DNA of 64,000 bases from a virus. Made by a program: the position numbers and the translations under genes. The stretch spans positions 62,001-126,000 of the IMG/VR virus record IMGVR_UViG_3300009181_000033; one strand, given 5' to 3'. The notes beneath the pieces are model-generated. The model did no database searches. It was not told the DNA's origin and saw only the letters and a program-made list of their open reading frames with translations. Below are positions 887 to 25,446 of this stretch, in pieces. Numbering within the stretch: the first letter of the stretch is position 1; the number at the start of each line of letters is the position of its first letter.

Positions 887-1099
887 TCAACTACGAATTT
901 CTAGTTCAGCTTCGAGTTCGGTGATTTGCCTTTTTAATTCAGCAATTTGTAATCTAATCTGAGCGGTGGAAAGATTACTAAAATCTTTTGGTTTAGGTAA
1001 ACCAATCATTCTACTTTTTTCTTTCTTATCTTCGGTTAGTTGGGCTCGCTTAATTTCTTCTGTAATAATCTGCTTAAGTTGTGCTGCGGTGATTTTCAT
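887..1099 (-). CDS. small protein with REEI-type N-terminal helix, 70 aa
   Basis: The protein opens MKITAAQLKQIITEEI, the N-terminal helix shared with the genes at 24,721, 25,075 and the ART-like gene ending at 18,320. The rest is charged and ends in a coiled-coil-like segment (QLRLQIAEL-type heptads, residues about 47-68). An AGGAG lies 13 nt before the ATG, with an ATATATTTATC box between. By analogy with the other tagged proteins it may be a virion-associated protein; that is inference. IS element 1 sits just upstream. Confidence 0.75.
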   Translation of the reverse strand: MKITAAQLKQIITEEIKRAQLTEDKKEKSRMIGLPKPKDFSNLSTAQIRLQIAELKRQITELEAELEIRS

Positions 1100-1215
1100 G
1101 GTGATAAATATATCTCCTAATTAAAAATGTCAGTGAAGTTGAAAATATCATATACTGATGATTAGCAACGCGAGGTGTATCATAGGGATATTTATTTATT
1201 GTGAGTTAGAGAAAA

Positions 1216-1236
1216 GATACGGCCTTGTGCCGTATC
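1216..1236. repeat. left-end subterminal hairpin of IS element 1
   Basis: Perfect 8-bp stem GATACGGC/GCCGTATC with loop CTTGT. The sequence CTTGTGCCGTATCATGAAT is also present at the left end of element 2, tying the two elements to one transposase specificity. Confidence 0.85.
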
Positions 1237-1244
1237 ATGAATCG

Positions 1245-1649
1245 TCATATTCTATCATGCTGAGTTTCAATGTATTTTTTCACACTTTCTTCGTTGGTTT
1301 CTCCAACAGATCCGTAGAAGGTTCCTCTACTCCACAAACCTGATCCCCAAAATTTTCTACCTTTTAGTTTTGGAAACTTAGTGAAGATATACACAGCTGA
1401 TATTGATTTCAACGTTTTTGCTATTTCTATCGGAGCTGTTTGATGATCCGCCTGAACAAAAATGTGAACATGATCTGGCATCACTTCAATGGTATGTAAT
1501 AGCCAACCATATTCTCCACAAGTTTCTGCAATGATATGTTTTGTCTCGACAGCAATATCATCTTTTAACACTGCATGTCGATATTTTGGGCACCAAACGA
1601 TGTGATAACCGAGTGAATGAACGCAATTATTTTCTGATATTTTTTGCAT
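1245..1649 (-). CDS. tnpA: TnpA, Y1 (HUH) transposase of IS200/IS605 type
   Basis: 134 residues, the usual size. It has the CVHSLGYHIVWCPKYRH opening typical of IS200 transposases, the HUH metal site as DHVHIFV, and the catalytic tyrosine region SVGETNEESVKKYIETQ near the C terminus. The start is placed at ATG 1649 (MQKISENN); a longer frame from 1685 runs into tnpB. The enzyme cuts and joins single-stranded DNA at hairpin ends. It should also be able to mobilise element 2, whose left end is nearly identical. Confidence 0.92.
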   Translation of the reverse strand: MQKISENNCVHSLGYHIVWCPKYRHAVLKDDIAVETKHIIAETCGEYGWLLHTIEVMPDHVHIFVQADHQTAPIEIAKTLKSISAVYIFTKFPKLKGRKFWGSGLWSRGTFYGSVGETNEESVKKYIETQHDRI

Positions 1650-1668
1650 ATTGGTTATACTTATAAAC

Positions 1669-2832
1669 GTGAACAGGACGATCAAGGTAAAATTACAACT
1701 TTCTGATGCAGATGTTCTCTCGCTTAGAGAAACTCAGAAGATTGTTTCGTCCTGCTTCAACGATCACGTAGCTTGGTCATTTAAGAAGAAGTCTTGGTCG
1801 AAGTTAACTGCCCATAAAGATCTCTATTTCTCACAGAGAGAAAAATTCCCTCAACTTCCGTCTGCAATGTTGCAATCCACAAGAGATACAGCTCTTGAAT
1901 CTGTAAAAGCGTTAAAATTCAAGTTTCAGCCTAAGAAATCTGAAAACAGCGGGATTAGGTACGATAAGAGATTGTTCTCACTAAGAGGAGAACAACTTAC
2001 TTTGAGCTCTATAAACGGTAGAATTAAGACAATAGTTCAATTCCCTGAATGGTGTAAGGAAGTTGTAAAAAAGGGAAAGGTTCAAGGAATTCAACTTTGC
2101 TGGGACAAGAAAAAGAAACAGTTTAATGCGAGTATAGTCTTTAGCTTGTTCGATATTAAGCCTAAATCAGACGGAACAGTCATAGGCTTAGATAGAGGTT
2201 TGATCAACTTAGTGACGAGTTCAGAAGGTGAAATTTTTGGTGGGAAATCAGTCAGAAAGAATCAGAGGAAGTTCCTCTACTTGAGGAAGAAGTTGTCGAC
2301 AAAAGGTACTCATTCCGCTAAAAGGCTTCTTAGGAAGATTAGTGGAAAAGAGCAGCGGTTCAGTCGAGAAATTAATCACATCATTGCGAAAGAATTGTCT
2401 GAAAGAAGTGAAGTCAAAACGTATGTCATAGAGGATTTAAGCGGAATTAGAAACAAATCAAGAGGAAGAAAGATGAACAAGATTCTCTCCTCTTGGGCTT
2501 TTAAACAGTTTGAATCTTTCTTGACTTATAAGTGCACAGCAAAAGGAATATCTGTCGAAAAAGTTGATGCAAGATATACGTCACAAAGATGTTCTTGTTG
2601 CGGAACAATTAGAAAAGAAAATCGTTTGAGAGGAAGATACTCCTGTAATCGATGTAGTTTCACAAAACACGCAGACATTAATGCAGCAATTAATATCAGA
2701 GATCGTTGGATCTCTAAATCATCTCGCAGCTTGAACTGTGAGCAGGATGCAGTCAATCATCCACACGGAAACAGTGTTGTTCTTGACGTTGGATCAAGCG
2801 CTGAGTTCCAAGGTCACGGCCTCGTGCCGTGA
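1669..2832 (+). CDS. tnpB: TnpB RNA-guided nuclease, 387 aa
   Basis: RuvC motifs are intact: VIGLDRGLINLV (first Asp), VIEDLSGIR (Glu) and HADINAAINI (last Asp). A four-Cys zinc finger (CSCCG ... CNRC) lies between the last two. I prefer GTG 1669 (MNRTIKVKLQLS) over TTG 1651 because the usual TnpB N-terminal fold begins there. The stop codon TGA 2830-2832 lies within the right-end hairpin, so the guide (omega) RNA is expected to overlap the 3' end of the gene and extend into the flank; no separate RNA can be delimited by eye. Confidence 0.92.
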   Translation: MNRTIKVKLQLSDADVLSLRETQKIVSSCFNDHVAWSFKKKSWSKLTAHKDLYFSQREKFPQLPSAMLQSTRDTALESVKALKFKFQPKKSENSGIRYDKRLFSLRGEQLTLSSINGRIKTIVQFPEWCKEVVKKGKVQGIQLCWDKKKKQFNASIVFSLFDIKPKSDGTVIGLDRGLINLVTSSEGEIFGGKSVRKNQRKFLYLRKKLSTKGTHSAKRLLRKISGKEQRFSREINHIIAKELSERSEVKTYVIEDLSGIRNKSRGRKMNKILSSWAFKQFESFLTYKCTAKGISVEKVDARYTSQRCSCCGTIRKENRLRGRYSCNRCSFTKHADINAAINIRDRWISKSSRSLNCEQDAVNHPHGNSVVLDVGSSAEFQGHGLVP

Positions 2833-3109
2833 CTATTTGACCCTCCGCATTACATTTCGGGAAACTCCGTTCATCCGTTAATCCCTCGTGTTGGAAGAAG
2901 ATCTCTTCCGATTCCTTGAATAAGGAACGTAGATCCTCGTAGCCCAGCTCAATGGAATTGGTTCCACTTCCCCAAGGATCGGTGATTCCAATACTAAACC
3001 TCTTGTAGGTTGGATTCCAATGAATGCTTAGATGATTTCCTTCCATATCATGAAAACCAGCCGAGGTGTTCTTCTTCTTTTTTGCCGTGGTGTTCAACCC
3101 CTTCTTCAT
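2753..3109 (-). CDS. hypothetical protein with IS-derived C-terminus, 118 aa
   Basis: The first about 91 residues (MKKGLNTTAKKKKNTSAGFH ...) are a basic-start small protein of unknown function with a GITDPWGSGTNSIELGYEDL core. The frame then runs into the right end of IS element 1, so the last residues (TARGRDLG ... ) are encoded by the transposon. If the IS is removed at its inferred ends, the protein would stop after ...NAEGQLH, about 20 residues shorter. ATG 3109 is set by the promoter at 3116-3144. Confidence 0.75.
   Translation of the reverse strand: MKKGLNTTAKKKKNTSAGFHDMEGNHLSIHWNPTYKRFSIGITDPWGSGTNSIELGYEDLRSLFKESEEIFFQHEGLTDERSFPKCNAEGQIVTARGRDLGTQRLIQRQEQHCFRVDD
2813..2833. repeat. 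right-end hairpin of IS element 1
   Basis: Perfect 8-bp stem GTCACGGC/GCCGTGAC with loop CTCGT, containing the tnpB stop codon. It encodes the shared C-terminal GLVP seen also in the second TnpB. Confidence 0.85.
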
Positions 3110-3115
3110 GATTCT

Positions 3116-3144
3116 ATTCTATCATCCTCCTGCGAAACTTTGCA
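3116..3144 (-). promoter_or_regulatory. TGCAAA-class promoter
   Basis: -35 TGCAAA at 3139-3144, 17-bp spacer, -10 TAGAAT at 3116-3121; ATG 6 nt downstream. Confidence 0.8.
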
Positions 3145-3412
3145 CCGGATCAACATCACTCATGAAAAGGTAGAATTCCTTAACACCTTCGTAATCCCAC
3201 ACACCAACTCGAATTCCAAACTGTTGAACCGCACTGATCCAGGAACCGTGAGGAGATCTTGAGTTCTGTGGGGAATCATAGGTAAATCCCCCGGCCGAGA
3301 TCCATTTTCCACCCTTTTCCACCCCACGAAATCCTCGGTTCTTACCGGATTTTATTGGTGGTTGAGATGAAATATTTCCGTGTGGATCACAGCCAAGTTC
3401 CTCAAGGTTCAT
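3122..3412 (-). CDS. hypothetical protein, 96 aa
   Basis: Starts MNLEELGCDPHG at 3412, one base after the stop of the upstream gene; a longer frame to 3508 would overlap that gene by 95 bp and is rejected. The middle is Gly, Lys and Ser rich (SGKNRGFRGVEKGGKW) and the C-terminus has GIRVGVWDYEGVKEFYLFM, which looks like a small beta domain. No family recognised. Its 3' end carries the promoter of the next gene. Confidence 0.7.
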   Translation of the reverse strand: MNLEELGCDPHGNISSQPPIKSGKNRGFRGVEKGGKWISAGGFTYDSPQNSRSPHGSWISAVQQFGIRVGVWDYEGVKEFYLFMSDVDPVQSFAGG

Positions 3413-3413
3413 G

Positions 3414-3815: not shown

Positions 3816-3821
3816 GTTTCT

Positions 3822-3850: not shown

Positions 3851-3851
3851 C

Positions 3852-4599: not shown

Positions 4600-4616
4600 T
4601 TGAGCACCTCTATGCT

Positions 4617-4645
4617 AGAGTACCACACTGATCGGGTGTTTTACA
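4617..4645 (-). promoter_or_regulatory. TGCAAA-class promoter, variant
   Basis: -35 TGTAAA at 4640-4645, 17-bp spacer, -10 TACTCT at 4617-4622. The start GTG 4599 is 17 nt downstream and has its own GAGG. Confidence 0.6.
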
Positions 4646-4835
4646 CGCACGAGATCATCTCAAGACTGACCGGTTGGAGGCTCAAGGTTCTCCCGTCTTG
4701 AAGCACGATCTTCCAAACATCCAGTGTTCCACGTTTCCCAGGGCTCAACACGATACCCAACATCCCGTTGTACTCTTTGGTCCAGGACTTGTCACCCGCC
4801 CTCACTTTCACTCGAACCAGATCACCAGGTTTCAT
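4641..4835 (-). CDS. PGD-family protein, 64 aa
   Basis: MKPGDLVRVKVRAGDKSW, then MLGIVLSPGKRGTLDVWKIV and a LQDGRTLSLQPVSLEMI tail: the full family layout in minimal form. ATGA overlap with the gene upstream. Its stop touches the -35 of the promoter at 4617-4645. Confidence 0.8.
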   Translation of the reverse strand: MKPGDLVRVKVRAGDKSWTKEYNGMLGIVLSPGKRGTLDVWKIVLQDGRTLSLQPVSLEMISCV

Positions 4836-5047
4836 ACGATCACCTCAGTTTTAAGGTGTGTTACCTGAGATGATTCGGATAAATCCGGCCATAAAATACG
4901 TACCCTATTTTTATCAAATATTTCTAGTACAATTCCAAGCCTCATGTGGCCATTGTAGAAGTTACCTACCATATCACCTGGTTGTGGATTGTGTACCGGG
5001 CCACCGGTGGGGGCAGAAAGTGAAAGTGTGTAGTGATTAGAGATCAC
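4832..5047 (-). CDS. PGD-family protein with 21-residue leader, 71 aa
   Basis: The leader MISNHYTLSLSAPTGGPVHN precedes QPGDMVGNFYNGHMRLGIVLE. The second block is followed by a WPDLSESSQV segment. Three bases separate it from the gene upstream. Same leader-plus-motif arrangement as the 105-residue gene at 4028. Confidence 0.75.
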   Translation of the reverse strand: MISNHYTLSLSAPTGGPVHNPQPGDMVGNFYNGHMRLGIVLEIFDKNRVRILWPDLSESSQVTHLKTEVIV

Positions 5048-5050
5048 AAT

Positions 5051-5269
5051 TCACTTTACCTCATCTGTGTAACCTGAGAAAATATTGATTACTCCACGAT
5101 CGGTAATCACATGGTAAAATACCCGAGGATTATCACCGCTTTCCACAGATTCCTCCAGAAAAATTCCGATGGTATCCGAAGAAAATCGAATCACAGGTTC
5201 CCCTGGTTTATAATCAAGAGGATATCCATGGGAATGTGCATAGATTCGAATCAAATCACCCGGTTTCAT
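5051..5269 (-). CDS. PGD-family protein, 72 aa
   Basis: MKPGDLIRIYAHSHGYPLDY, then TIGIFLEESVESGDNPRVFY and VITDRGVINIFSGY. The last block matches the VITSRGIIGW segment of the gene at 4342. Overlaps the upstream gene by ATGA. Confidence 0.8.
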   Translation of the reverse strand: MKPGDLIRIYAHSHGYPLDYKPGEPVIRFSSDTIGIFLEESVESGDNPRVFYHVITDRGVINIFSGYTDEVK

Positions 5270-5606: not shown

Positions 5607-5611
5607 GATTC

Positions 5612-6787: not shown

Positions 6788-6999
6788 GAGATAACCTCGA
6801 GGATGGAATCTGTGAGTTCCGCAATTCTTCCTTTACCCATCCAATTAGGGAGAGTTTCGTTCATGAGAATCGTACACAGGTGAACCTGATCATATCCACC
6901 CGAATCACGGAAACAACCTTCCATCGGGCGAATGTGTAGGATGATTCCAATCATTTCCCTTCCTTGATCATGGGTTCGTACCAGATCACCAGGTTTCAC
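6784..6999 (-). CDS. PGD-family protein, GTG start, 71 aa
   Basis: MKPGDLVRTHDQGREMIGII, then an aromatic-poor middle (GCFRDSGGYDQVHLCTILMN) and GRIAELTDSILEVIS. GTG at 6999 overlaps the upstream stop; a GAGG lies a few bases before it on the sense strand. Confidence 0.78.
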   Translation of the reverse strand: MKPGDLVRTHDQGREMIGIILHIRPMEGCFRDSGGYDQVHLCTILMNETLPNWMGKGRIAELTDSILEVIS

Positions 7000-7232
7000 G
7001 TGAGAACCTCTATATCATCCTCAATCTCTTCATCCTTCAACCAGGTTCTTCCAACCATTCTAACAGGGGAGGTGAGAAAAACATGGATCTCGTTGTACTT
7101 GGATCCTGGCTTCTTTGGGATGAAATCAATCACCATTCCAAACCAATCACCATAAACGTTATCAAAAACTTGATGACGATGGTAAAAATCAGGCGGAACA
7201 GGTTTGTTTCTAACCATATCACCAGGTTTCAT
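6996..7232 (-). CDS. PGD-family protein, 78 aa
   Basis: MKPGDMVRNKPVPPDFYHRH, DWFGMVIDFIPKKPGSKYNE, VFLTSPVRMVGRTWLKDEEI. First gene after the promoter at 7,239-7,267, start 6 nt from the -10, so probably translated without a leader. Confidence 0.8.
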   Translation of the reverse strand: MKPGDMVRNKPVPPDFYHRHQVFDNVYGDWFGMVIDFIPKKPGSKYNEIHVFLTSPVRMVGRTWLKDEEIEDDIEVLT

Positions 7233-7238
7233 GGTTCT

Positions 7239-7267
7239 ACCTTACCACACTCACATGTGGGTTTGCA
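7239..7267 (-). promoter_or_regulatory. TGCAAA-class promoter
   Basis: -35 TGCAAA at 7262-7267, 17-bp spacer, -10 TAAGGT at 7239-7244; ATG 6 nt away. The spacer ACCCACATGTGAGTGTGG is nearly the same as that of the 8,258 promoter. Confidence 0.8.
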
Positions 7268-7487
7268 TGGTTTGCCGGGTTGATTCCATACGATAAGCGG
7301 TTTGAGGTTCAACCACGATTAGGTCTGATTCCCTACAATGAACGATTCCTTGGGAAGGAAACAACACAGACCACCATGGAAACGGATCATAGGTTTTCGG
7401 TGTGTGACTCTCAAGCAAGAATCCATATTCAATGTCCAGATTCATTTCCCATCGAAACTTCCAACAGACAAGATCACCGGGGCTCAT
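7251..7487 (-). CDS. PGD-family protein, 78 aa
   Basis: MSPGDLVCWKFRWEMNLDIE, YGFLLESHTPKTYDPFPWWS, VLFPSQGIVHCRESDLIVVE. A 14-bp overlap with the upstream gene. The 3' end extends through the spacer and -35 of the next promoter, so transcription of this gene passes over that promoter. Confidence 0.75.
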   Translation of the reverse strand: MSPGDLVCWKFRWEMNLDIEYGFLLESHTPKTYDPFPWWSVLFPSQGIVHCRESDLIVVEPQTAYRMESTRQTMQTHM

Positions 7488-7746
7488 TTCGCTTCACTCT
7501 CTTCAAAAATGAATCCTCACCATGATCACCTGAATACAGATAATCGATATCCCTCATCACCTGTGACAGGTTTCTAAGAATAGGAATCTGTTCACGTAGG
7601 TAACTCAAAACCTCTTCACCGTAACCTCGATAATATCCCCACTCATCTTTTAGATCGTTATTCTCAATCTCGTGCTCAAGCTCATCAGCAAACTGGTGAA
7701 CCTGATAATAGATGTAACCGTTGTTATTGAAACTTCCTCCGCTCAT
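7474..7746 (-). CDS. acidic helical protein, module A copy 1, 90 aa
   Basis: MSGGSFNNNGYIYYQVHQFA opens a mostly helical, acidic protein with RDIDYLYSGDHGEDSFLKRV near the end. It is unrelated to the PGD family. A second copy, interrupted by an amber codon, lies at 9,936-10,202. Both are followed upstream by copies of the MKLYRVTFQTEILVEA gene, so a two-gene module has been duplicated. This layout (helix with YSGDxxED) resembles small phage proteins of unknown role. Confidence 0.8.
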   Translation of the reverse strand: MSGGSFNNNGYIYYQVHQFADELEHEIENNDLKDEWGYYRGYGEEVLSYLREQIPILRNLSQVMRDIDYLYSGDHGEDSFLKRVKRNEPR

Positions 7747-7994
7747 TTGCTTCCTCCTTTCAAGATTTCTTCTACGAGTAACTCAGGCTCACCCCATCTT
7801 TCGATCGAACGCCAAGGTAAAGAACCGAGCTCATTTCGCCGTAGCTGGCTCAAATCGTTGAGCTCAGTGATTCCGTAGATTTCAGCGTTCTCAATCTCTT
7901 CGTGGGCATATTTGAATCCAATTTTGCCAGCCTCGGACTCATCCTTCGCCTCTACGAGAATTTCTGTTTGAAATGTCACGCGATAAAGTTTCAT
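7743..7994 (-). CDS. module B copy 1, 83 aa
   Basis: MKLYRVTFQTEILVEAKDES is an amphipathic strand-strand-helix start; the protein ends LLVEEILKGGSK. Its paralogue is at 10,223-10,489 (MTLYRLTFQTEILVDASDER). Start set by both ATGA coupling and a promoter at 8,001-8,029 lying within the upstream gene. Function unknown. Confidence 0.8.
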   Translation of the reverse strand: MKLYRVTFQTEILVEAKDESEAGKIGFKYAHEEIENAEIYGITELNDLSQLRRNELGSLPWRSIERWGEPELLVEEILKGGSK

Positions 7995-8251
7995 GGTAGC
8001 ACTTTATCATAGTTTGGACTGGGTTTGCACTCAATGGCTACATTTGCGATCCATAATGGTTGTCCATGCACCAGGATTCTCGTGAATTCTTCACGAATCT
8101 CTAGGATGACCCCTACGTCCTCGGAATAAACAATGACAGCCTTGTGATACCCATATTCCCCTGGATAGCTAGCGTATGCTTTTCTTCCAAGATCAAGGCC
8201 ATGCATCACGGCCCACCGTGGGATCGTAGAGACCATATCACCAGGTTTCAT
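7991..8251 (-). CDS. PGD-family protein, 86 aa
   Basis: MKPGDMVSTIPRWAVMHGLD, a long insertion (RKAYASYPGEYGYHKAVIVY), then EDVGVILEIREEFTRILVHG. Its 3' end contains an internal promoter for the module B gene, so that gene can be expressed separately. Confidence 0.8.
   Translation of the reverse strand: MKPGDMVSTIPRWAVMHGLDLGRKAYASYPGEYGYHKAVIVYSEDVGVILEIREEFTRILVHGQPLWIANVAIECKPSPNYDKVLP
8001..8029 (-). promoter_or_regulatory. TGCAAA-class promoter, intragenic
   Basis: -35 TGCAAA at 8024-8029, 17-bp spacer, -10 TAAAGT at 8001-8006; ATG 7994 is 6 nt away. Lies within the 3' end of the upstream coding region. Confidence 0.7.
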
Positions 8252-12021: not shown

Positions 12022-12234
12022 CTAACTCTTTTCACAAACCACCTCAAACTCCACCACATCAAAGAGATCACAGATATCTTTCATCCGACCTCGGTGGGTT
12101 ATTCCATTACTCAACAGGTACTTGTAGGACAATCCCCAGGTGTCTTCAGTCACCGACAGGATAACTCCGGTCAAGTTTGAATGTCCATTTCTCTGCAGGT
12201 ACTCGTTTGGAAGTAATAGATCACCAGGTTTCAT
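12022..12234 (-). CDS. PGD-family protein, 70 aa
   Basis: MKPGDLLLPNEYLQRNGHSN, LTGVILSVTEDTWGLSYKYL, LLSNGITHRGRMKDICDLFD. ATGA overlap with the upstream gene. Last gene of its run; nothing after it reads in the same direction until the adhesin. Confidence 0.78.
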   Translation of the reverse strand: MKPGDLLLPNEYLQRNGHSNLTGVILSVTEDTWGLSYKYLLSNGITHRGRMKDICDLFDVVEFEVVCEKS

Positions 12235-12431
12235 TCCACCAACTCCAGGTAATTTCGATGAAGTCTAACAATCATCTTGCCCGTGTCAGGGTGACCCACC
12301 CTCAACACCTGCAACATCTCCAGCTGGTATTTGGTGTACTTCTTCCCTTTGGTGGGTACGTACTCCGGACCAAGCACCACCCCAAGAATGTCGGGTGAAG
12401 TCTTGAATCGAACCAGGTTACCAGGCTTCAT
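12231..12431 (-). CDS. PGD-family protein, 66 aa
   Basis: MKPGNLVRFKTSPDILGVVL has Asn for Asp; a TKYQLEMLQVLRVGHPDTGK segment replaces block two. ATG lies 6 nt after the -10 at 12,438. Confidence 0.78.
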   Translation of the reverse strand: MKPGNLVRFKTSPDILGVVLGPEYVPTKGKKYTKYQLEMLQVLRVGHPDTGKMIVRLHRNYLELVE

Positions 12432-12595: not shown

Positions 12596-12616
12596 CTTAC
12601 GGCACAAGGCCGTAAG
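12596..12616. repeat. right-end hairpin of IS element 2
   Basis: Perfect 8-bp stem CTTACGGC/GCCGTAAG with a 5-base loop. The tnpB stop codon lies inside it, as in element 1. Confidence 0.85.
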
Positions 12617-13688
12617 GTTCGAGGGTAGTCTTGCCTTCATCGACTTTACCCTTTAGGGACTTCAGCTCGGACGGTTTTGCCGTCCTTCGGCCCTTCCTGC
12701 AAATCTCTTTCTTCACAGGATCGATCTTTAGGCGTAATGCGATGTTGAAAGCTGCATTCACGTCCGCATGATCAATGTGTTCACAGTGCAAACAGTGAAA
12801 CACTTTTCCATTTCTGCTCTCTTTATCAACGACTCCGCAACGAGAACACGAGGTTGATGTCCAAGCAGGATCAACAACGTTCAACTCTACACCTTGCTCC
12901 TTGGCTTTGTAAGTGAGAAGCATTCTCACTTGATAGAACGGCCAAGAGTTCAAAGTATGATTTCCTTGTTTGCGGTACTTCTTCGTACAATCTTTTCTGA
13001 TCCCTGAGAGATCTTCTAACTTAATTCCAACTCCACTTTTCTTTGCTTCTTTGACTATTGTAGTTGTGATCTTGTGAATCGTATCGGTCGTCTTCCTTCT
13101 CTCACGATCCTTGATCTTCTTCAGCTGTGACCACTGCTTCTTCTCTTGCAGGTTCTGCCTAATATTCTTATACTTCTTCTTCAAGAAGGGAATCTGTTTT
13201 CCAAACTTCTTGATTTTTCCTGTCTGCGGATTTGCCACAACAATGGAGTGAGAAGTTGAGTTAAGATCGATGCCGATGAAACCTTTAGGTTCATCGACCT
13301 GTTGATCAGGGAAAGTCACAGAAACATAAGCCCAAGTTTTATCAATCTCAACTTGATTAAGCTTTGTCCAATCAGAAGGAAACCAACAGCGAAATTCTAC
13401 CCTAAGACTTGGAATCCGTAGTTTCCTAGTTTCTGCATCAAACTTTAGATTTTGACCAGGAACCGTTAGTTTAACCTTTTTTGGGTTAACTGATTTGATC
13501 TTCTTATTCAGTCCATACTTTCTAACGATCTGATTAGCAATCTCAGATTTTAGGCCGATATGTTTAATAGCTTTTGTTGAGACGAGACCATTTTCAAGAG
13601 CGTACTGAGCAACTTTAATTGCCTTCTCAAAGAGAGAAGGCTCAAAGCTTACACCATGTTTCACCTTGAATGTCTTGATCATCTCCAT
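12597..13688 (-). CDS. tnpB: TnpB RNA-guided nuclease, 363 aa
   Basis: RuvC motifs: GFIGIDLNSTSHSIVV (Asp), IKLEDLSGIR (Glu), HADVNAAFNI (Asp). Zinc finger CSRCG ... CLHC. It is clearly diverged from the first TnpB (different N-terminal domain, MIKTFKVKHGVSFEPSLFEK), yet both end in GLVP because their stops lie in the same hairpin. The expected target-adjacent motif, read from the left flank, is (T)ATTC. Start ATG 13,688 or the Met two codons later. Confidence 0.92.
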   Translation of the reverse strand: MEMIKTFKVKHGVSFEPSLFEKAIKVAQYALENGLVSTKAIKHIGLKSEIANQIVRKYGLNKKIKSVNPKKVKLTVPGQNLKFDAETRKLRIPSLRVEFRCWFPSDWTKLNQVEIDKTWAYVSVTFPDQQVDEPKGFIGIDLNSTSHSIVVANPQTGKIKKFGKQIPFLKKKYKNIRQNLQEKKQWSQLKKIKDRERRKTTDTIHKITTTIVKEAKKSGVGIKLEDLSGIRKDCTKKYRKQGNHTLNSWPFYQVRMLLTYKAKEQGVELNVVDPAWTSTSCSRCGVVDKESRNGKVFHCLHCEHIDHADVNAAFNIALRLKIDPVKKEICRKGRRTAKPSELKSLKGKVDEGKTTLEPYGLVP

Positions 13689-15127: not shown

Positions 15128-16186
15128 ATGAATAATGAGCAATTATTAAGAGAAGTAATTAGATTATCGTTAGTTGAACAATCGTTTCAACAACCTCAAT
15201 CAAAGATGCGCAAAATTAAACTAACAGTGCCTCAAGAAAGTGGTCTAATAAAGACAATAGAACTTTCTGAGAGTTATATTGTCGGTGTTCTTGGTATACC
15301 AAGAAATCTTCTATTAGAAAGTGTTTACGATTCCAAACTAAATAAAGTCATATTGAAAGAACATCTTCTATTTGAAGGTTGGTGGAGTGAAGCAAAACAA
15401 CTTCTTGGAAAAGGTATTGATAAAATCAAAGAAACAAGCAATGACATTGTTGATGTCATTGAAAACTTTGGATCAAATGCTAAAGGTGTGGTTGCAGGTC
15501 TTTGGGCGGCAGCATCTGACAGTAACATTCTAGGAAAAGTAACAGGCGCTGCATCACAACTTGCAAGTAGAAGAGCAACTGACATTTTTGAGCCACTTAC
15601 CAAGATTACAAACTTATTAAAAAGTACAGAAATTGGCAAAAAAGCAGCTGGTGTATTTTCAAATATCATTGAAAAAATTAAAACTTTACTGAAGTCTTTC
15701 ACTTCGTTAGATGGATGGAAAGGAATGTTGTCTTCTGCTGCTGTTTATCTTGGCATAAAGTTTCTCAGATCTAAAATCGGAACTACAATTCAAGACATAG
15801 CAGATAAATGTAAATCAGGAGATTGGAAAAGCATTGCAAATGAAATTACAAAAGGTGTTTTTGCAAAAAGTTTAGATGCAATATCTGCTCCCGAAACTGA
15901 GCAAGAAAATGAAGAAAATGAAGAAGATGAAGAAGATGAAGAAACTTCATCCGAAGGTTCGTATATACGAATAGTCATCAACTTCATTAACAGCAAAGTT
16001 ATTAATGCGATTAAAAACTTTATTTTTGAAAAAATCAAATCAATCGCCGGCGATGCCATCGCAGCGCTCGCAGGCCCGGTAGCATGGATAAAAACCGCAG
16101 TAACAATATTCAAAACAACAGATTTCGTTGTTGAAACTTTAATGGACATAATTTCACGCGCAAAAGGTCCATTTAACAAATTGTAA
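15128..16186 (+). CDS. virion-associated-type helical protein, 352 aa
   Basis: The opening MNNEQLLREVIRLSLVEQ is a distant version of the N-terminal helix found on putative packaged proteins. Residues about 90-230 are helical and amphipathic with repeated TKITNLLKSTE/KIKTLLKSFT patterns, and about 260-275 is an acidic run (EENEEDEEDEE). Hydrophobic helices near the C-terminus (AIAALAGPVAWIKTAVTIF) could enter a membrane. It is the only plus-strand gene for 7 kb apart from tnpB and is AT rich. A role in the virion or at DNA entry is inference. Confidence 0.65.
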   Translation: MNNEQLLREVIRLSLVEQSFQQPQSKMRKIKLTVPQESGLIKTIELSESYIVGVLGIPRNLLLESVYDSKLNKVILKEHLLFEGWWSEAKQLLGKGIDKIKETSNDIVDVIENFGSNAKGVVAGLWAAASDSNILGKVTGAASQLASRRATDIFEPLTKITNLLKSTEIGKKAAGVFSNIIEKIKTLLKSFTSLDGWKGMLSSAAVYLGIKFLRSKIGTTIQDIADKCKSGDWKSIANEITKGVFAKSLDAISAPETEQENEENEEDEEDEETSSEGSYIRIVINFINSKVINAIKNFIFEKIKSIAGDAIAALAGPVAWIKTAVTIFKTTDFVVETLMDIISRAKGPFNKL

Positions 16187-16343: not shown

Positions 16344-16613
16344 CTAAAACTCACTCCCGGCGTCGTCGACAAGTGTCCCCCCCAACTGACACCTGCTTCC
16401 CATCTCCATTAGCCTAACCCAAGAATGCATCACCCAACCAATTTCGGTACCAAACATAACCTTCAACCAATCTTCACCCCACCAATTTTCGATGTCCAAT
16501 ACGAGTCCGGGAATTCCATAAACATTCATTAACCTCTGTCCACCAAAATTTCCAATTTGGACACAAGGCGAAATGTTCTCTGTAGCCGTACACACCAAAT
16601 CGCCGGGTTTCAT
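16344..16613 (-). CDS. PGD-family protein, 89 aa
   Basis: MKPGDLVCTATENISPCVQI, PGLVLDIENWWGEDWLKVMF, GTEIGWVMHSWVRLMEMGSR. The GTEIGW block is the usual third block. ATGA overlap with the upstream membrane protein. Confidence 0.8.
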   Translation of the reverse strand: MKPGDLVCTATENISPCVQIGNFGGQRLMNVYGIPGLVLDIENWWGEDWLKVMFGTEIGWVMHSWVRLMEMGSRCQLGGTLVDDAGSEF

Positions 16614-17664: not shown

Positions 17665-18320
17665 TCAACCTGAGGAAAGGAAGTTTTGCATTTTCGGACT
17701 AGACTTCGCAAGAGTCGACCACACAACACGACCGATTCTCACCGGTCCCAATGCCAAAACTTCATTCTCGTCAGACTTACTCCTCAACGAGAGCAAATTA
17801 TAAAACCCATCAGGTCCACTCAAAAACGTTCCGCTGTTTTCGGCCACGTCTGCCGCCAAGATCACAATCATTCTCTTTCCAGGTGGCACAGAAGCTGTTG
17901 CAAATCGATACGCAATCGCCGGTTCATTCGTCCACGAATCAGCATTTTTTTGTGGGCTATATGTTCCACCCACAACCGCGTCACCTTCCAGCTCGTCAGC
18001 GAAGTCAGGAGATACTCCAAGTCCCCGGAGAAGCCCCACAGCCTCCTCCTTTGACAGTAACATTCCTCTATAAACTGTTTGAACAGCAGGCGGTTTCAAC
18101 ACGTCATCGTACGATCCATCCGCCAAACCAGCACGTAGCACGGCAACAGATTCAGGCGACATGTTGGTGCTCCACAAGATCTGCTTCGAAAGTTGTCGAA
18201 AAGTATCCTTTTCTATTTCGGTATCAGGTTCAGGCAAACGTTGAACTCTCGAATCACCAAAGGCATATGCACTATTTCTTCCCTAATGAGAGAACGAAGC
18301 TCAGATAAACGTATCTTCAT
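17665..18320 (-). pseudogene. ADP-ribosyltransferase-like protein with N-terminal tag, frameshifted
   Basis: From ATG 18,320 the frame encodes MKIRLSELRSLIREEI, the shared N-terminal helix, then needs a -1 shift near 18,272-18,280 (GAAGAAATAG) to enter the long frame to 17,665. The long part has the R-S-E pattern of arginine-type ADP-ribosyltransferases: VYRGMLLS (Arg), NADSWTNEPAIAYRFA (Ser), and SDENEVLALG (E-x-E). One added A in the A-run would restore a 218-residue protein. T4 Alt and ModA/B are such enzymes, Alt being injected with the DNA. The assignment rests on motifs only. The break may be real, programmed or a consensus error. Confidence 0.6.
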
Positions 18321-19238: not shown

Positions 19239-22200
19239 TCAACCAATTAGGGTGAATGGTGCAGTGGGTGGCGTGAAGTCTCCACTGTACAACGCAGTTC
19301 CCTTGGTGAATCGCACTTCGTCAATGTAGCCATTGAACTCAATTCCCAAAACAGTGGAATAGTCAAACACGTTGCCCAAAATCAAACCATTTTGAGCCAA
19401 GTTAAACGAAAATGTTGTTGAGCCATCGCACACACCGTTCAAGTAAACGTATACTGTGTTTCCTTTTCTAGAAACTGCAACGTGATACCAGGTGTTTAAT
19501 TGGATCGCAGTATTGCAAGTCAGATAGGTACCACCTGCTGTATAGAGCTTCAACTTATTCGCAGAGTTCGTACAGATGAGGAGACCATCCTGTGAACTAA
19601 CTCTGGTGTCAACCATACTATTGTAGTAGTCTCCAGGGAAACCCGTGCTCATGGCACTCATATTGAACCAATACTCTATTGTAAAGTCACCTGTTCCAAG
19701 CGCAAAGTCAGAAGAAGTCGCCGCAACCCTTGCGCCCGACCCTCTACCTCCTGGTAGATAGAGCGAAGAACTTCCAAATTTCGACTTGGTCGTTGAGATA
19801 GCAGTCCCGGTCCCATACGCTGTAAATGTCTTTGGTGAAGTTGAACTGTCCGTGAACGTTGTGCTTCCATTTGATCCCTCAAAGTGAAGCAAACAATTAT
19901 TCCCATCGGTAAATGGTGCAGTGGGTGGCGTGAAGCTGTTGTTGTAGGCACACTTTCCAACCAATATGCGGAATTCATCAAAGTAACCATTGGTTGTTCT
20001 GGCACCGCCGGCGGCTGTCGGACAATTTCCGATATAAATTGTATCAGTGTATAAGGTTCCTGTAGCCCCTGACGTTCCAACAAGATTTCCATCGTAATAG
20101 ATCTTTATTGGACCCGAGCTGGTTTCTCTTGTTACTGCGAAATGGTGCCAAGCATTTGCAGTGACTGTACCAGTCGCCGCCAATGAACCACCCCAGCTAG
20201 TACCGTTATATGACCAATACGAATACAATTGATTTGCACCAGTCACCATCAAAAGCAATCCTTTAAATTCATCACCTGTTATTATAAATTGCTCACCTGC
20301 GCTTAAAGCATTCAGGTAGAACCAACCCTCAATGGTGAAGGGACGGTCGAGGAGAGCAATGGGTCTAGCTTCGGTGCGATCCATTTTGACATAATTTGCA
20401 ACATTTCCATTTAGTTTTAGAGAAGAACCTCCAAATTTTGACTGCAATGTTGAAATTTGAGCGGCACCGATAAATGAAACTCTACAAGGCGCAATATTCG
20501 TTGTTTCGTCTATCGTTGAAGTTTGACCATTGATGCCATCAAAATTTAACAAAACTGCAGTCTTTGAATTGCCGGTAACTGGTGTGGTTGGAGCAGTGAA
20601 ATTTCCAGTATAAACTGCCTCACCTAATTGAACCCTTATGTTGTCCATGTAACCATCAAAAGGTGATATTGACTGGGCATGCGCAGCCAAACCTACGTAG
20701 AAATAACGGTAGGAACCAAATGTTGTATTGCAAGCTTGTGACAACACAGATGTACCATTAACATAAATGTTAAATGTGGATCCATTACGAACTGCTGCTA
20801 TGTGGTACCACTGATTAATCTGTGGAACAAACGAAGTGACCCCCGCATAACCGGTCGCATCATCAACAAATCTCAGTACATTTGTTGAACTTTGAATAAA
20901 CAATTGAGGACCAGCAACACCCGCAGAACCATTCCAGAACTCTATGAGATTTTGGAAACCAATGTTGTTGGAATTAAAGTAGAACCAACCTTCCATCGTG
21001 AAGTCTTGTGTTCCAAAGGAATAAGTGTTTGCACTTGGGTTTGCGAACTGGAGCTTGTTGGTGTTGGTGCCATTGAGGTAAAGGGATTTGCCACCGAACT
21101 TTGATTGGGCGGTGGAGGTGGCAACGGTGCCGATGCGATGCTGGGTTAGGGGAGATTGGGCAGAGTCTAAAAGGGGAGAAACGTCTTTTACGGTAACAGT
21201 ACTGTTGCCATTATTTGAAACAAATAATTTTGAATTTGCAGCAACAACACCATAAGGATTAGTAAATCCTGCAAAAGTTGTCGTAACTGAATTTGTTGAA
21301 ATGTCTATAACAGAAACTGTGTTTCCACTATAATTAGCAACATATAGTTTTTTGCCATCTGGACTCACAGATGATCCATATGGTGCTGCACCGACAGTGA
21401 TATCGGTTCCTTTTGTTGAGCTTGAAAAATAAACTGGTGACACGGTCCCGCTAGCATTAGTGTAATTTGAATAGTAAGCAGCGTTAGTTGCTTTTGTTGC
21501 AACATAAGCTCCGGAAAAACCGGTTAAAGTTGACAACAGAGATATAGCACCAGTATCTTGGTTTAAAGAATAAACCTTTACGCTAGATCCTAAGCTTACA
21601 TATAATTTAGTGCCATCAGACGATACTACTGGGGCATATACACCCCATGTCGTGTCTCCCAATAGTGTAGCCGAAGGTGTTGCGGCAGTTAAATCAATCC
21701 TATATAAACCTGCGTTTTGACATGCGACGAATAAAAATTTATCATTTGTAGTTATTGCCGACGAATGAACGCCAGTTCCTGTTGTCACAGAGCTAAAAGA
21801 GCCATTTGTTGTGTCTACAATATAAACTTTATTTTGACTGTAGTTAGTTCCATAAATTTTCGTACCCGTTGAATTTATTGTCAACTGGTGAATTTTATTA
21901 CCCTCTGTTTCGAGAGTTTGTGTTTTCGTTCCTGAGGCAACGTCAATTACATGAATTCCACTTCCCGAAGCGAGAGACCATGAACCAATATAAGCTTTTG
22001 CACCATCAGGCGAAAGAATACCTTGCATTGGTGTTGTGGCGCTTATTGTTGAGTCTGCCACCGAAGCAGCGTCATCGAAGTGCAGCAACATCTTCGTATA
22101 AGGATCAGTAGTGATCGTGGCGGTTCCATTGATAATCTGCTGGATGATAGAAGATGTCCTCTTACGAAGAGCGGTCTTCGACATGTCACCCTTGTTCTTG

Positions 22201-22241
22201 GCGACGACCTTGGTCATGTCGCCCTTAAATTTTATAGGCAT
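19239..22241 (-). CDS. large adhesin: attachment segment, beta-propeller, three LamG domains, 1000 aa
   Basis: MPIKFKGDMTKVVAKNKGDM is the attachment segment, almost the same as in the adhesin at 51,565. Residues about 60-330 are YVTN-type propeller repeats (SPDGAKAYIGSWSLASGSGI, TGTKIYGTNYSQNKVYIVDT, SSDGTKLYVSLGSSVKVYSL). Three concanavalin/LamG-like domains follow, each with FTMEGWFYFNSN, FTIEGWFYLNAL or FTIEYWFNMSAM and an IDEVRFTKGTALYSGDFTPP-like end. Start 22,241 is set by the match with the other adhesin; upst translation is leader. Expected receptor-binding fibre or spike. Leader of 66 nt contains a GGAACT/AGTTCC hairpin. Confidence 0.85.
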   Translation of the reverse strand: MPIKFKGDMTKVVAKNKGDMSKTALRKRTSSIIQQIINGTATITTDPYTKMLLHFDDAASVADSTISATTPMQGILSPDGAKAYIGSWSLASGSGIHVIDVASGTKTQTLETEGNKIHQLTINSTGTKIYGTNYSQNKVYIVDTTNGSFSSVTTGTGVHSSAITTNDKFLFVACQNAGLYRIDLTAATPSATLLGDTTWGVYAPVVSSDGTKLYVSLGSSVKVYSLNQDTGAISLLSTLTGFSGAYVATKATNAAYYSNYTNASGTVSPVYFSSSTKGTDITVGAAPYGSSVSPDGKKLYVANYSGNTVSVIDISTNSVTTTFAGFTNPYGVVAANSKLFVSNNGNSTVTVKDVSPLLDSAQSPLTQHRIGTVATSTAQSKFGGKSLYLNGTNTNKLQFANPSANTYSFGTQDFTMEGWFYFNSNNIGFQNLIEFWNGSAGVAGPQLFIQSSTNVLRFVDDATGYAGVTSFVPQINQWYHIAAVRNGSTFNIYVNGTSVLSQACNTTFGSYRYFYVGLAAHAQSISPFDGYMDNIRVQLGEAVYTGNFTAPTTPVTGNSKTAVLLNFDGINGQTSTIDETTNIAPCRVSFIGAAQISTLQSKFGGSSLKLNGNVANYVKMDRTEARPIALLDRPFTIEGWFYLNALSAGEQFIITGDEFKGLLLMVTGANQLYSYWSYNGTSWGGSLAATGTVTANAWHHFAVTRETSSGPIKIYYDGNLVGTSGATGTLYTDTIYIGNCPTAAGGARTTNGYFDEFRILVGKCAYNNSFTPPTAPFTDGNNCLLHFEGSNGSTTFTDSSTSPKTFTAYGTGTAISTTKSKFGSSSLYLPGGRGSGARVAATSSDFALGTGDFTIEYWFNMSAMSTGFPGDYYNSMVDTRVSSQDGLLICTNSANKLKLYTAGGTYLTCNTAIQLNTWYHVAVSRKGNTVYVYLNGVCDGSTTFSFNLAQNGLILGNVFDYSTVLGIEFNGYIDEVRFTKGTALYSGDFTPPTAPFTLIG

Positions 22242-22307: not shown

Positions 22308-22314
22308 CGAATAT

Positions 22315-22560
22315 TTAAAATTTAAAAGCGCTGTCCTTCGGCGCGTCCAGGACCAGGTGCATGTCTCCTTCCCACACATCGAAAGACTTGATGAATCCAT
22401 CGATTAAAATGGTGGCTGTGACCATCGGTGGGAAAACCAATTGTCCTTCTTCTGGCAGCTCGAGCGCCAACAACAGGCCCGTATAGCGCCGGCCGCCGGA
22501 ATATACGTCGACAAAATCGCCGGGCTTGAAATCTTTCCAATTCGAATTTTTCACGGCCAT
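22315..22560 (-). CDS. PGD-family protein, 81 aa
   Basis: Start at 22,560 (MAVKNSNWKDFKPGDFVDVY), one base after the transporter stop. YTGLLLALELPEEGQLVFPP is block two; ILIDGFIKSFDVWEGDMHLV is block three. High-GC codons, unlike the PGD genes just to the left. Confidence 0.75.
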   Translation of the reverse strand: MAVKNSNWKDFKPGDFVDVYSGGRRYTGLLLALELPEEGQLVFPPMVTATILIDGFIKSFDVWEGDMHLVLDAPKDSAFKF

Positions 22561-22561
22561 C

Positions 22562-22984
22562 TCACTTGACATTGAACAGGAAAAATCCAAACAACATCAC
22601 GGCCGTCGCAACAACTTTCCTCACCGTCAACTGCTCACCTAAAAATATCACGGTCAAAGCAGTCGTCACCACCGGGCTCGTCGACACCATCGTCGACAAC
22701 ATCCCAGGGTCAGAACTCCCCTTCAACAAGGTGCCAAACATGACGGCCGCAAACACGTTCATCAAGAGGCTTATGACGGCAAATAAAACGCCCAAAGAAC
22801 TGTACCCAACAATCCCATTCCTATTTATCAAATAAAGGAAAACTGGAATCTCCAACGCGTATACGGCGCCGGCGACGATCTGCATCTGATACGGATGAAT
22901 GCGATCCACCGCCATCTTTCTGAAAAATGCCGACACACCAAACAACAGGATCGTCGGAATCAATAAACCCAGGTGCTTCAACAT
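22562..22984 (-). CDS. EamA/DMT-type small transporter, 140 aa
   Basis: Four to five membrane helices in one EamA-type half: LIPTILLFGVSAFFRKMAVD at the start and MVSTSPVVTTALTVIFLGEQ, the conserved last-helix motif of the family, near the end. Single-domain members of this size usually dimerise. Substrate unknown. A host-derived accessory gene is the likely origin. Confidence 0.8.
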   Translation of the reverse strand: MLKHLGLLIPTILLFGVSAFFRKMAVDRIHPYQMQIVAGAVYALEIPVFLYLINRNGIVGYSSLGVLFAVISLLMNVFAAVMFGTLLKGSSDPGMLSTMVSTSPVVTTALTVIFLGEQLTVRKVVATAVMLFGFFLFNVK

Positions 22985-23048
22985 AAATTTCGAAAACTAT
23001 ATATTGTCGTTCCCCAGCGTTTTAGCAATTTTTAATTTTATTTTTAGA

Positions 23049-23609
23049 TCAACATCCGTCGTCGTCCAACACCTTTTCCCTCATGCGACCCAAAAGGCCA
23101 CCCAGGCCTTCCTTTTTAATGATCCTGTCGAACTGTCTCCGATAATTCTCTGATAAACTCATCCCCTCGAATTCTATGTCAACCACCTTATATCCGCCAT
23201 CCTCATTCCTCAGCCTATAACCAACCTCAACAGGCTCGGCACGAGAACTCCTTGGCGGAACAGCAACTCCCCTAACAAAATCACCCTCGGAAGTCCACGC
23301 AACCTTCCAACCAACGACACCCTTGATGTTTCTCTGATAACTCCTCCTCACCAGAATTCCCATCATCATACGAAACTCAAGGCGCTCAACATCTGTCATC
23401 CCAGACCAGTGGTCATGCATTGCAGACTGCGCCATCGCCTCGTAATCAACCACCTCGTCAAGCACAAGCAACAAAGCAGTCGGATTCTTTGCACTCCTCA
23501 GAATCTCGGAATGCTTGGCAACCACGTACTCCTGGGGAGTCAGGGCAAAAACATCACAAGCAGATAGTCCAACAAAACAAAAAACAAAGGCACACAAGGA
23601 CTTCTTCAT
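23049..23609 (-). CDS. MlaC/Ttg2D-like periplasmic protein, 186 aa
   Basis: A signal peptide (MKKSLCAFVFCFVGLSAC ... FA, possible lipobox LSAC) leads a domain with the MlaC layout: YEAMAQSAMHDHWSGMTDVE, RRSYQRNIKGVVGW, GGYKVVDIEFEGMSLSENYR and QFDRIIKKEGLGGLLGRMRE. MlaC carries phospholipids between inner and outer membranes. It is 20-25 residues shorter than E. coli MlaC. A copy next to phage genes suggests envelope modification during infection; no other Mla gene is nearby. Confidence 0.78.
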   Translation of the reverse strand: MKKSLCAFVFCFVGLSACDVFALTPQEYVVAKHSEILRSAKNPTALLLVLDEVVDYEAMAQSAMHDHWSGMTDVERLEFRMMMGILVRRSYQRNIKGVVGWKVAWTSEGDFVRGVAVPPRSSRAEPVEVGYRLRNEDGGYKVVDIEFEGMSLSENYRRQFDRIIKKEGLGGLLGRMREKVLDDDGC

Positions 23610-23837
23610 GGCACAAATCTATGTTCCTTCAATAAGCATGTATAAAACATTTCATGACATTTTGATCACGAAATAATCACGCAGTCACAGCACCCTTGAG
23701 GCTCGTGCCAAATCCTTCAACAAATTTGATTCGATACGTGAATAACTTTCCTCCCACCGAGCTCACACAAAGCCACCCCTATTTTTTCTCAAATATATTC
23801 ACACACAAAAACTTTAATCTACATATATAGCTTCGTC
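23610..23837. other. divergent intergenic region
   Basis: 228 bases between divergent genes. No gene and no TGCAAA-class promoter seen. A TATATA box precedes the HNH gene at about 23,822-23,827. Confidence 0.4.
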
Positions 23838-24209
23838 ATGAAGCTACTCAATAAACTCGTTGCCAAAATACACGAAATAAAGAAGTCACACCTCAGGTCA
23901 CCACAATGGGACGAAGTCAGGGACGCGTTCGTCAAAAAATACCCGACATGTGCAGCATGCGGCGGCACGGAATCCCTACAAGTCCACCACATAAAACCAT
24001 TCCACCTACATCCGGAATTGGAACTCGACGAGGGTAACCTCATCAGCCTATGCATGGGCGAACACAACTGTCACCTCAACATCGGCCACGGCGACTCATT
24101 CAAATGCTACAACCCGGACGTCGACATCGACTCCGCCCACTTCAGGCTCGGCTCCCCCAACGAGAGAAAATTTATCATAGAAAACGCAAAAAAGAAGCGG
24201 CGCTCCTGA
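23838..24209 (+). CDS. HNH endonuclease, 123 aa
   Basis: CAACGG at about residues 38-43, then LQVHHIKPFHLHPELELDEG NLISLC and HNCHLNIGHGD form the beta-beta-alpha-metal HNH fold with Cys zinc ligands. The HHIKP core is typical of McrA-like and phage HNH nucleases. Could act in packaging, in host DNA breakdown or as a homing enzyme; none is shown. Confidence 0.88.
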   Translation: MKLLNKLVAKIHEIKKSHLRSPQWDEVRDAFVKKYPTCAACGGTESLQVHHIKPFHLHPELELDEGNLISLCMGEHNCHLNIGHGDSFKCYNPDVDIDSAHFRLGSPNERKFIIENAKKKRRS

Positions 24210-24215
24210 GAATAT

Positions 24216-24626
24216 TCACCGCGACCTGAACGCCGGCTTATACCGCTCAACAACCTGAACGTTCTCGCTCTCAACGCCCATCACCTCACGAATAACTCCC
24301 AAGGCACGATCCACGTCAAACGTCTTGCAGCTGAACGCGTCCAAACTAAAGAACCGCTGCAACGGCCACGCATGCACACTCAAATGCGAAGTCGATATAA
24401 CCTGTACCCCGGTTATCCCTCCCTCGTCCTCAAAACACCCCGTCTCACGCACACGCTCGAGCACTTCAGGATCCACAGGAACCTCGTATATCATCGGTCG
24501 ATCCAATGGCTTCATCTCCAGCACATCGGTCAAAGCAGCAAACAATCTCCCTAAACCCGCGCGCGTGAACACAGCAACATCCCGCACACGAGCGTCAACA
24601 ATAATATGCAATCCAGCGTCTTCCAT
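24216..24626 (-). CDS. speD: SpeD-like S-adenosylmethionine decarboxylase, 136 aa
   Basis: Size and layout fit the small prokaryotic SpeD: ISTSHLSVHAWP holds the serine that becomes the pyruvoyl group, and LDAFSCKTFD matches the FTCG region with its proton-donor Cys. The residue before the serine is Thr where Glu is usual, and the second half of the core motif is LQRFF rather than a Gly-Tyr-Ala. The enzyme makes decarboxylated SAM for spermidine. Known as an accessory gene in some phages. Activity uncertain because of the Thr. Confidence 0.75.
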   Translation of the reverse strand: MEDAGLHIIVDARVRDVAVFTRAGLGRLFAALTDVLEMKPLDRPMIYEVPVDPEVLERVRETGCFEDEGGITGVQVISTSHLSVHAWPLQRFFSLDAFSCKTFDVDRALGVIREVMGVESENVQVVERYKPAFRSR

Positions 24627-24672
24627 CAGAAACTCCTTTCAGCGAACACGCATAACTATTCAACAAAAAAGA

Positions 24673-24696
24673 AAGGGCACCACACATGATGCCCTT
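24673..24696 (-). terminator. rho-independent terminator
   Basis: Stem AAGGGCA/TGCCCTT with a 10-base loop, followed on the minus strand by TCTTTTTT. Ends the gene at 24,721. Confidence 0.85.
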
Positions 24697-24720
24697 CTAA
24701 TCATCTTTTCTAACTTCTAG

Positions 24721-24912
24721 TCACATCATCATAGGATCAATGTCGCCCATTTTCTTGTGAGCAGCCTGAGCCTCAGCCGGCTCATACTCGTGATCATATC
24801 CACAGGTACCACACGCCTCATAATCTGCCGGCACGTCAGCAGGAACTGCACCCATCACACGACTCACTTCTTCTTTAATAATTCTTCTTAATTGTGAAAC
24901 TGTTAATCTCAT
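24721..24912 (-). CDS. REEI-tagged small Cys protein, 63 aa
   Basis: MRLTVSQLRRIIKEEVSRVM is the clearest copy of the shared N-terminal helix. The rest has CGTCGYDHEYEPAEAQAAHK, a CxxC knuckle with acidic residues, and a Met-rich end. GGGAG lies 11 nt before the ATG. Single-gene transcript bounded by its own terminator. Likely a virion-type protein by the tag; function unknown. Confidence 0.8.
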   Translation of the reverse strand: MRLTVSQLRRIIKEEVSRVMGAVPADVPADYEACGTCGYDHEYEPAEAQAAHKKMGDIDPMMM

Positions 24913-24967
24913 CGTATATTTTCTCCCTGCTTGCTTATTGCTTAGTTATATATATTTCATAAAACAA

Positions 24968-24992
24968 AATGGGGGTTTTTACGCCCCCATTT
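24968..24992. terminator. bidirectional terminator
   Basis: Stem AATGGGGG/CCCCCATT, flanked by T-runs on both strands. Ends the gene at 25,075 on the minus strand. A further 8-bp inverted repeat GATCGAGC/GCTCGATC lies between at 25,027-25,068. Confidence 0.8.
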
Positions 24993-25074
24993 TTATTAAC
25001 AATATTCCCGGGCTCCCCGGGCGCGCGATCGAGCACCCTTTTACAACCAACATTTTCAAGCTCGATCAATAAGG

Positions 25075-25446
25075 TTAGGCTGACAGCTCTCTTGAACTGA
25101 TCTCATCTGCCAAATTTCTTGAACTTGTTCCAATATAACCAAGAACCTCGCCCAAGGCTCGGGCCGCAGGATTCTTGCCCTCACCGGTCATCTTAAACCC
25201 AGCTGAATCAAGAATGTACCCATAGAGGCCTCGAAGATCCAACTTCCTCGAAAGAGCTCCAACAGCCTTCGGCGTCGACATCAGCTCCTTCGCTGCCTCA
25301 AGAACACCAGGCACATCATGCATCTTCCGTATCACAACAGCCCCTCCCACCGTATCCTCATGCTCACCACCAACATTCTTCATGTCCTCAGACAAACCAA
25401 TCTCTTCCCGAATAATCCGCCTGAGCTGCAACGTCGTCAACTTCAT
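25075..25446 (-). CDS. REEI-tagged protein, 123 aa
   Basis: Starts at 25,446 with MKLTTLQLRRIIREEIGLSE; a longer frame exists but the tag fixes the start. The rest is helical with GLYGYILDSAGFKMTGEGKN and an ARALGEVLGYIGTSSRNLAD end. No family recognised. Same tag as the ART-like protein, so export in the virion is a reasonable guess. Confidence 0.78.
   Translation of the reverse strand: MKLTTLQLRRIIREEIGLSEDMKNVGGEHEDTVGGAVVIRKMHDVPGVLEAAKELMSTPKAVGALSRKLDLRGLYGYILDSAGFKMTGEGKNPAARALGEVLGYIGTSSRNLADEISSRELSA

Follow-up and report, generated by a model that had tools for sequence, protein, structure and literature searches.

A short N-terminal helix shared by otherwise unrelated proteins was studied in a 64,000-nucleotide stretch of viral DNA (the window), positions 62001-126000 of the 297,894-base virus record IMGVR_UViG_3300009181_000033. 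The helix, called the tag here, is very probably a removable N-terminal capsid-targeting propeptide that would work like the capsid targeting sequence (CTS) of phage T4, with an unrelated sequence and a much wider use. A removable head-loading label is the most likely role because many unrelated proteins share a helix that ends at a predicted protease cut. The observations at the sequence level are the shared tag, a near-invariant glutamate (E) at its end, a second cut-like site, protease and capsid genes in the same genome, tagged genes at the head locus, tag swapping between related cargos and restriction to phages.

Tag copies in the window and the whole record

Four open reading frames (ORFs) of the window, all on the minus strand, begin MK-[IL]-x4-L-[RK]-x-[IL]-I-x-E-E (Table 1). 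A degenerate DNA pattern matched the window four times and had no match across 100 dinucleotide shuffles. The shared start reported in the initial annotation is therefore real. All four of its positions held a copy; two of them, 887 and 24,721, mark the stop codons of ORFs that start at 1099 and 24912. The domains behind the tags showed no sequence relation to one another, and Pfam and PHROGs gave nothing above cut-off for the strictly tagged window proteins.

The strict pattern occurred eight times in the whole record and the reversed pattern not at all. A profile of this tag type (class 1), made from the tags of other phages only, was applied to the 411 called genes of the record. Thirteen N-termini reached at least 16 bits, with 0.03 expected from the internal rate. 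Only one of 75,717 internal positions scored as high, and this was a second tag copy within a tagged protein. Record bases 1-2000 and 286001-297894 were included in the pattern search; the gene-level scan covered the bases between them. Genome-wide, the motif hydrophobic-hydrophobic-x-E was found at residues 6-25 of 45 genes, compared with 21 and 29 genes in the following two intervals. No comparable N-terminal excess was found genome-wide when D, Q, K, N or S replaced the E.

Occurrence in other phages and in bacteria

IMG/VR was searched with a DNA pattern for MK[IL]xxxQLRxII in which the glutamate was left unspecified. At least 172 distinct matches were found, of which at least 165 head ORFs of 40 aa or more. 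The codon-permuted control, run to completion, gave 70 stretches (41 distinct when translated), and three of these headed ORFs of at least 40 aa. Strict whole-record counts reached 22-23 tags per phage, and the reversed pattern was absent from all 20 records counted. Among the matches listed, 153 tagged proteins fell into 119 clusters, 97 of them singletons. Cargo that could be named included a poly(A) polymerase head domain, an L,D-transpeptidase, an AAA_33 kinase and a weak phosphodiesterase match. Tagged genes often stood in tandem arrays and were frequently distant from the head locus.

The tag pattern was also run on 257 billion bases of bacterial and archaeal genomes. Among the matches listed there, 44 ORFs were at least 40 aa long and nine had E at position 14. 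The nine all lay within five contigs of metagenome-assembled genomes, which looked phage-like; three of these contigs had at least two tags, and two of the genomes carried an S77 protease. Among these matches the tag thus appears essentially absent from bacterial genes, and the motif was not found equally in non-phage cytosolic proteins, an outcome which the initial annotation had named as evidence against a packaging signal. T4, Pectobacterium phage CBB and two large contigs with S77 protease were tag-free, so the tag is confined to part of the T4-headed phages. The cultured Flavobacterium phage immuto, a distant relative, has starts of the MKKSQLRxIIKE type. In Flavobacterium phage immuto_2-6A, tagged genes lie at 102294-103359, 113188-113946 and 123355-123576. 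A tblastn search of annotated phages with 22-aa tags returned only LR756508 at E values of 3-5, the query being too short for BLAST.

A predicted protease site at the end of the tag

A cleavage site after the helix had been suggested as a point to look for, and a candidate is present at the tag end. Glutamate occupied position 14, after IIx, in 158 of 165 ORFs (96%) among the matches listed. The residue after it varied as a P1' residue would (E in 110, A in 22 and S in 12). The end IIxE fits the consensus (I/L)xE of the T4 prohead protease gp21. Residues 16-30 of tagged proteins were enriched in a further (I/L/M)xE site with G, A, S, N or T as the next residue, with 48 found against 10.9 expected and a maximum of 20 in 300 shuffles. 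At residues 31-60 there was no enrichment of this site (11 observed, 16.6 expected).

The genome encodes a Peptidase_S77 protein (PF03420, E = 1e-25) that retains the gp21 motifs GELxHP and SSRGxGS, and a gp23 capsid protein (PF07068, E = 1e-64). At its predicted propeptide site the capsid protein reads VLKE↓S (the arrow marks the cut). Two aliphatic residues followed by x-E stood at the predicted propeptide cut in all 27 distinct N-termini of the relatives' capsid proteins. T4 IPII/IPIII, gp22, gp67 and gp23 also carry hydrophobic-hydrophobic-x-E; the known cuts in these proteins are MKTYQEFIAE↓A, MLKEQLIAE↓A, KLFAE↓A, FLIE↓G and FLTE↓A (in part from PMC9026906).

Head locus and scaffold-type tail

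Tagged genes of 81, 137 and 106 aa adjoin the protease gene and sit between the portal and terminase genes. Several other phages with the tag have similarly placed tagged genes, after the protease gene. In T4, gp67 and gp68 lie immediately before gp21. An S77 protease was found in 16 of 17 verified tagged contigs of at least 100 kb; Serratia phage BF (L103) was excluded from this count as a 13-codon chance match. In the tagged records that lacked S77, gp23 was also missing (15 of 15), and in tagged fragments of 60-100 kb with S77, gp23 was present (6 of 6). The absences of S77 therefore resemble missing head modules. In the record's portal gene (257774-260902) an intein-like insert (CLHGDTKIAVPGG...FATDTVISHN) was seen by eye.

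The scaffold protein of the record ends ERWARLAGIVK. Variants of this tail were found on a tagged 327-aa protein (record position 246636, ERWQKLAGIIK) and on a HAD-like tagged protein (record position 165413, SRWNKLAGLK). A scan for RxWxKLAGIIK followed by a stop returned 54 stretches, of which 43 were directly before a gp23 gene, three were scaffold-like by their N-terminus and eight were in other proteins. Six of these other proteins had a readable start, three with a class 1-like tag and three with another helix ending LRE. Tagged proteins other than the scaffold thus share its tail, an independent link between tag-bearing proteins and the prohead core. On such proteins it is a possible second loading signal. 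The tail RWxKLAGI(I/V)K recurred on non-scaffold proteins, several of them with the tag, at 252353-254422, 246636-247619 and 165413-166324 of the record and in contigs L374, L386, L391, L365, L393 and L396.

A second tag class

Looser copies of the helix had been reported at 15,128, 50,134 and 55,970 (Table 1). They scored low on the class 1 profile and fit a second class, LRxYIRxILxE. Class 2 stands in arrays, for example MKHLRQYIRQILLE, adjoining class 1 tags. A class 2 scan with the glutamate unspecified gave 18 matches; E followed directly or one residue later in 15, and the remaining three were chance-like. The class 2-tagged protein at 55970 is homologous (36% identity, E = 1e-28) to a protein of contig L032 with the class 1 tag MKIRLSQLRKIIREEI. 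Similarly, a cargo family with the segment ILTGRFKNKRT begins MKTTERQLRMIIRE in one phage and MKHLREYIRQILLE in another (E = 4e-24). Judged from these alignments, class 2 replaces class 1 on homologous cargo and the tags are interchangeable.

Proposed mechanism and alternatives

Capsid loading with removal by the prohead protease, as the initial annotation had proposed, is supported by the gp21 consensus, the presence of S77 and gp23, the head-operon position and the scaffold tail. We infer docking, cleavage, packaging and injection of the tagged proteins as follows. During head assembly the amphipathic helix would dock its cargo onto the prohead scaffold core. The T4-type S77 protease would then cut behind IIxE, in many cases with a further cut at an (I/L/M)xE↓(G/A/S) close by, and so free the protein from its tag within the head. 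The freed protein would remain beside the DNA and probably leave the head with it when the next cell is infected. At least two interchangeable tags, MK[IL]xxxQLRxII[KR]E and the class 2 form, would serve this route, and some cargos would additionally bear the scaffold's own C-terminal tail.

We lean narrowly towards the broader proposal of a modular address system in many large T4-headed environmental phages. In each phage two interchangeable propeptides, with a scaffold-type tail on some cargo, would bring as many as a few dozen unrelated proteins into the head, and the tag would be stripped by the prohead protease before delivery to the host. The proteins carried in the head and injected by large phages are mostly unknown and have needed proteomics phage by phage. 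If the proposal is true, the tag would be a genome-readable catalogue of injected proteins in such phages, listing candidates, often small and family-less, in many phages that are uncultured. Enzymes could also be loaded into phage heads by means of these ready-made short signals. The two tags and the shared scaffold tail would allow the docking of cargo to a T4-type core to be tested.

Several results weigh against loading and removal by this route. Co-occurrence with S77 discriminates poorly because large untagged T4-headed contigs, two of them here, carry S77 too. Three tailed tagged proteins (record position 246636, L386 and L391) have E one residue later and another residue at position 14, D in the case of L386. 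A T4-style late promoter box, TATAAATA, was not enriched upstream of tagged genes. The similarity to the T4 CTS MKTYQEFIAEA is limited to MK and hydrophobic-hydrophobic-x-E, and the strict pattern had no match in T4; the claim is therefore that the tag works like a CTS and not that it is a homologue of the T4 CTS. The literature searched yielded no virion proteomics or N-terminal mapping for any tagged phage, immuto included.

Among other explanations the best surviving, at a low probability, keeps recruitment to the prohead core and cutting by S77. Here most tagged proteins would be scaffold-like core parts that are degraded or expelled at maturation. The tagged genes flanking the protease lie near the place of gp67 and gp68 in T4, some tagged proteins carry the scaffold tail, and T4 core fragments and propeptides mostly exit the head (PMC9026906). 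However, core parts would not be expected to be as diverse and enzyme-like as the named domains show the cargo to be, and many tagged genes are in arrays, often far from the head locus.

Considerably less probable is a role that has nothing to do with the head, in which the helix would be a signal for localisation or interaction and would, for example, attach its proteins to a membrane or direct them to a phage compartment or a host partner. Such signals are often short, basic and amphipathic helices that head unrelated proteins, but the near-invariant E, the second cut-like site, the head-locus genes and the scaffold tail on tagged proteins would be left unexplained.

The codons at identical tag residues differed in 131 of 248 cases and were the same in 117, with 91.5 expected to be the same. 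Recent copying at the DNA level is therefore unlikely and was rejected as the source of tag identity. A functionless by-product of gene shuffling, in which a recombining 5' end was copied onto many small ORFs, is the least credible explanation, as the tandem arrays and the slight excess of codon matches are outweighed by different codons at most identical amino acids, by conservation of the peptide between very different phages and by the alternation of two tag sequences on one cargo family.

Comparison with known systems

The T4 CTS of IPI, IPII, IPIII and Alt was reportedly described by Mullaney and Black in 1996. This short, removable propeptide at the N-terminus directs internal proteins to the core and brings foreign proteins into the head as well (PMC9026906). 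Like the tag, it stands on otherwise unrelated proteins and ends in hydrophobic-x-E. The tagged phage also resembles T4 in having a gp21-type protease, gp23, scaffold and small core proteins in one locus. The peptide differs, being MKITKRQLRRIIKEE or MKHLRQYIRQILxE here and MKTYQEFIAEA in T4. A genome here has as many as 22-23 strict copies, compared with four in T4, and the two interchangeable classes and the scaffold-type tail on some cargo, known here from sequence alone, are further differences. The unrelated sequence, the far wider use per genome, the two apparently interchangeable forms and the scaffold-tail link are what is new relative to the T4 CTS. The tag motif strings had no match in the literature text searched; mention in figures or other papers is possible.

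In phage P1 an N-terminal segment of DarB directs the protein and a reporter into the head (PMC9024508). Unlike the tagged phages, P1 apparently has no separate scaffold, its Dar N-termini yielded no consensus and DarB is a single protein of 250 kDa (PMC9024508). The ejection proteins of SPN3US have propeptides that the prohead protease of that phage removes, cutting after x-x-E, as is proposed for the tag, but the cuts are A-x-E, most propeptides exceed 100 residues and there is no short multi-cargo tag (PMC5694885, PMC10052503). The mapped mature end of SPN3US gp53, (E)GWKETLKDLFER, resembles the predicted E↓GWWSEAKQLLGKG of the window. Candidate mature ends of the form E↓G(F/W/L)(F/L/W)xxxK, which resemble this end and membrane-active helices, were seen at 15128-16186 (residue 83) and 50134-51372 of the window, at record position 266838 and in contigs L043, L067, L097, L119 and L132. 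Over all proteins such ends were not clearly above chance.

Encapsulin cargo-loading peptides are short peptides that load diverse proteins into an HK97-fold shell. Unlike the tag, they are usually C-terminal and are not removed by a protease, and the shell is a scaffold-free cellular compartment.

Features of the window

Table 1. Tagged proteins of the window and the ORF resembling ADP-ribosyltransferase (ART)
Feature	Tag or segments	Position	Strand	Class 1 profile score	Remark
70-aa protein	class 1, MKITAAQLKQIITEEI	887..1099	-	26.1	tag codons 1052-1099
35-codon ORF	class 1, MKIRLSELRSLIREEI	18213..18320	-		downstream cargo in -1 frame
63-aa protein	class 1, MRLTVSQLRRIIKEEV	24721..24912	-	32.6	
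123-aa protein	class 1, MKLTTLQLRRIIREEI	25075..25446	-	29.3	
352-aa protein	class 2, LLREVIRLSLVEQ	15128..16186	+		second candidate cut HLLFE↓GWWSEAKQLLGKG at residue 83, predicted from motif
412-aa protein	class 2, ILRNYVKLCLKEN, fits LRxYIRxILxE	50134..51372	-		internal SLLKE↓GFFDSIEAAK, predicted from motif
232-aa protein	class 2, MKNDVILEGIYKRLLKEA	55970..56668	-		true start at about 56668
ART-like ORF	TVYRG...SWTNEPAIAYRFA...ENEVLALG	17665..~18255	-		-1 frame relative to 18320 tag; identity unconfirmed

One tag had been described as heading an ADP-ribosyltransferase-like protein. The tag at 18320 is present, and the ART-like ORF behind it is out of frame and unconfirmed in identity. The same frame relation was found in the 99%-identical contig L351. 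The offset at 17665-18320 may be a real frameshift, a shared assembly error or a decayed gene. When R-S-E motifs were sought by eye, YRG, SWT and ExE-like segments were seen. A Pfam search and a PDB sequence search with the ORF (17665-18255) gave no match, and its single-sequence AlphaFold model was too poor for use (predicted local distance difference test score, pLDDT, 43). A tandem set of paralogues in LR756508.1 (L017, 177696-183575) may be ART-like, as its members have segments resembling YLYRGTS; they begin with short sequences of the MRLKEILLE type, and the four tested had no Pfam match.

Another repeated start, MKPGD(L/M)V, heads a family of small ORFs at 4641-5269, 6996-8251, 12022-12431 and 16344-16613, with no Pfam match. 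An IS200/IS605-type TnpA with TnpB and a second TnpB-like gene were seen at 1245-2832 and 12597-13682. Two LamG/beta-propeller-like proteins of about 1000 aa are encoded on opposite strands (19239-22241 and 51565-54633), and their starts and ribosome-binding regions are near-identical. At about 28000-30000 the GC content rises from about 43% to 52%, adjoining a cluster of ten tRNA genes.

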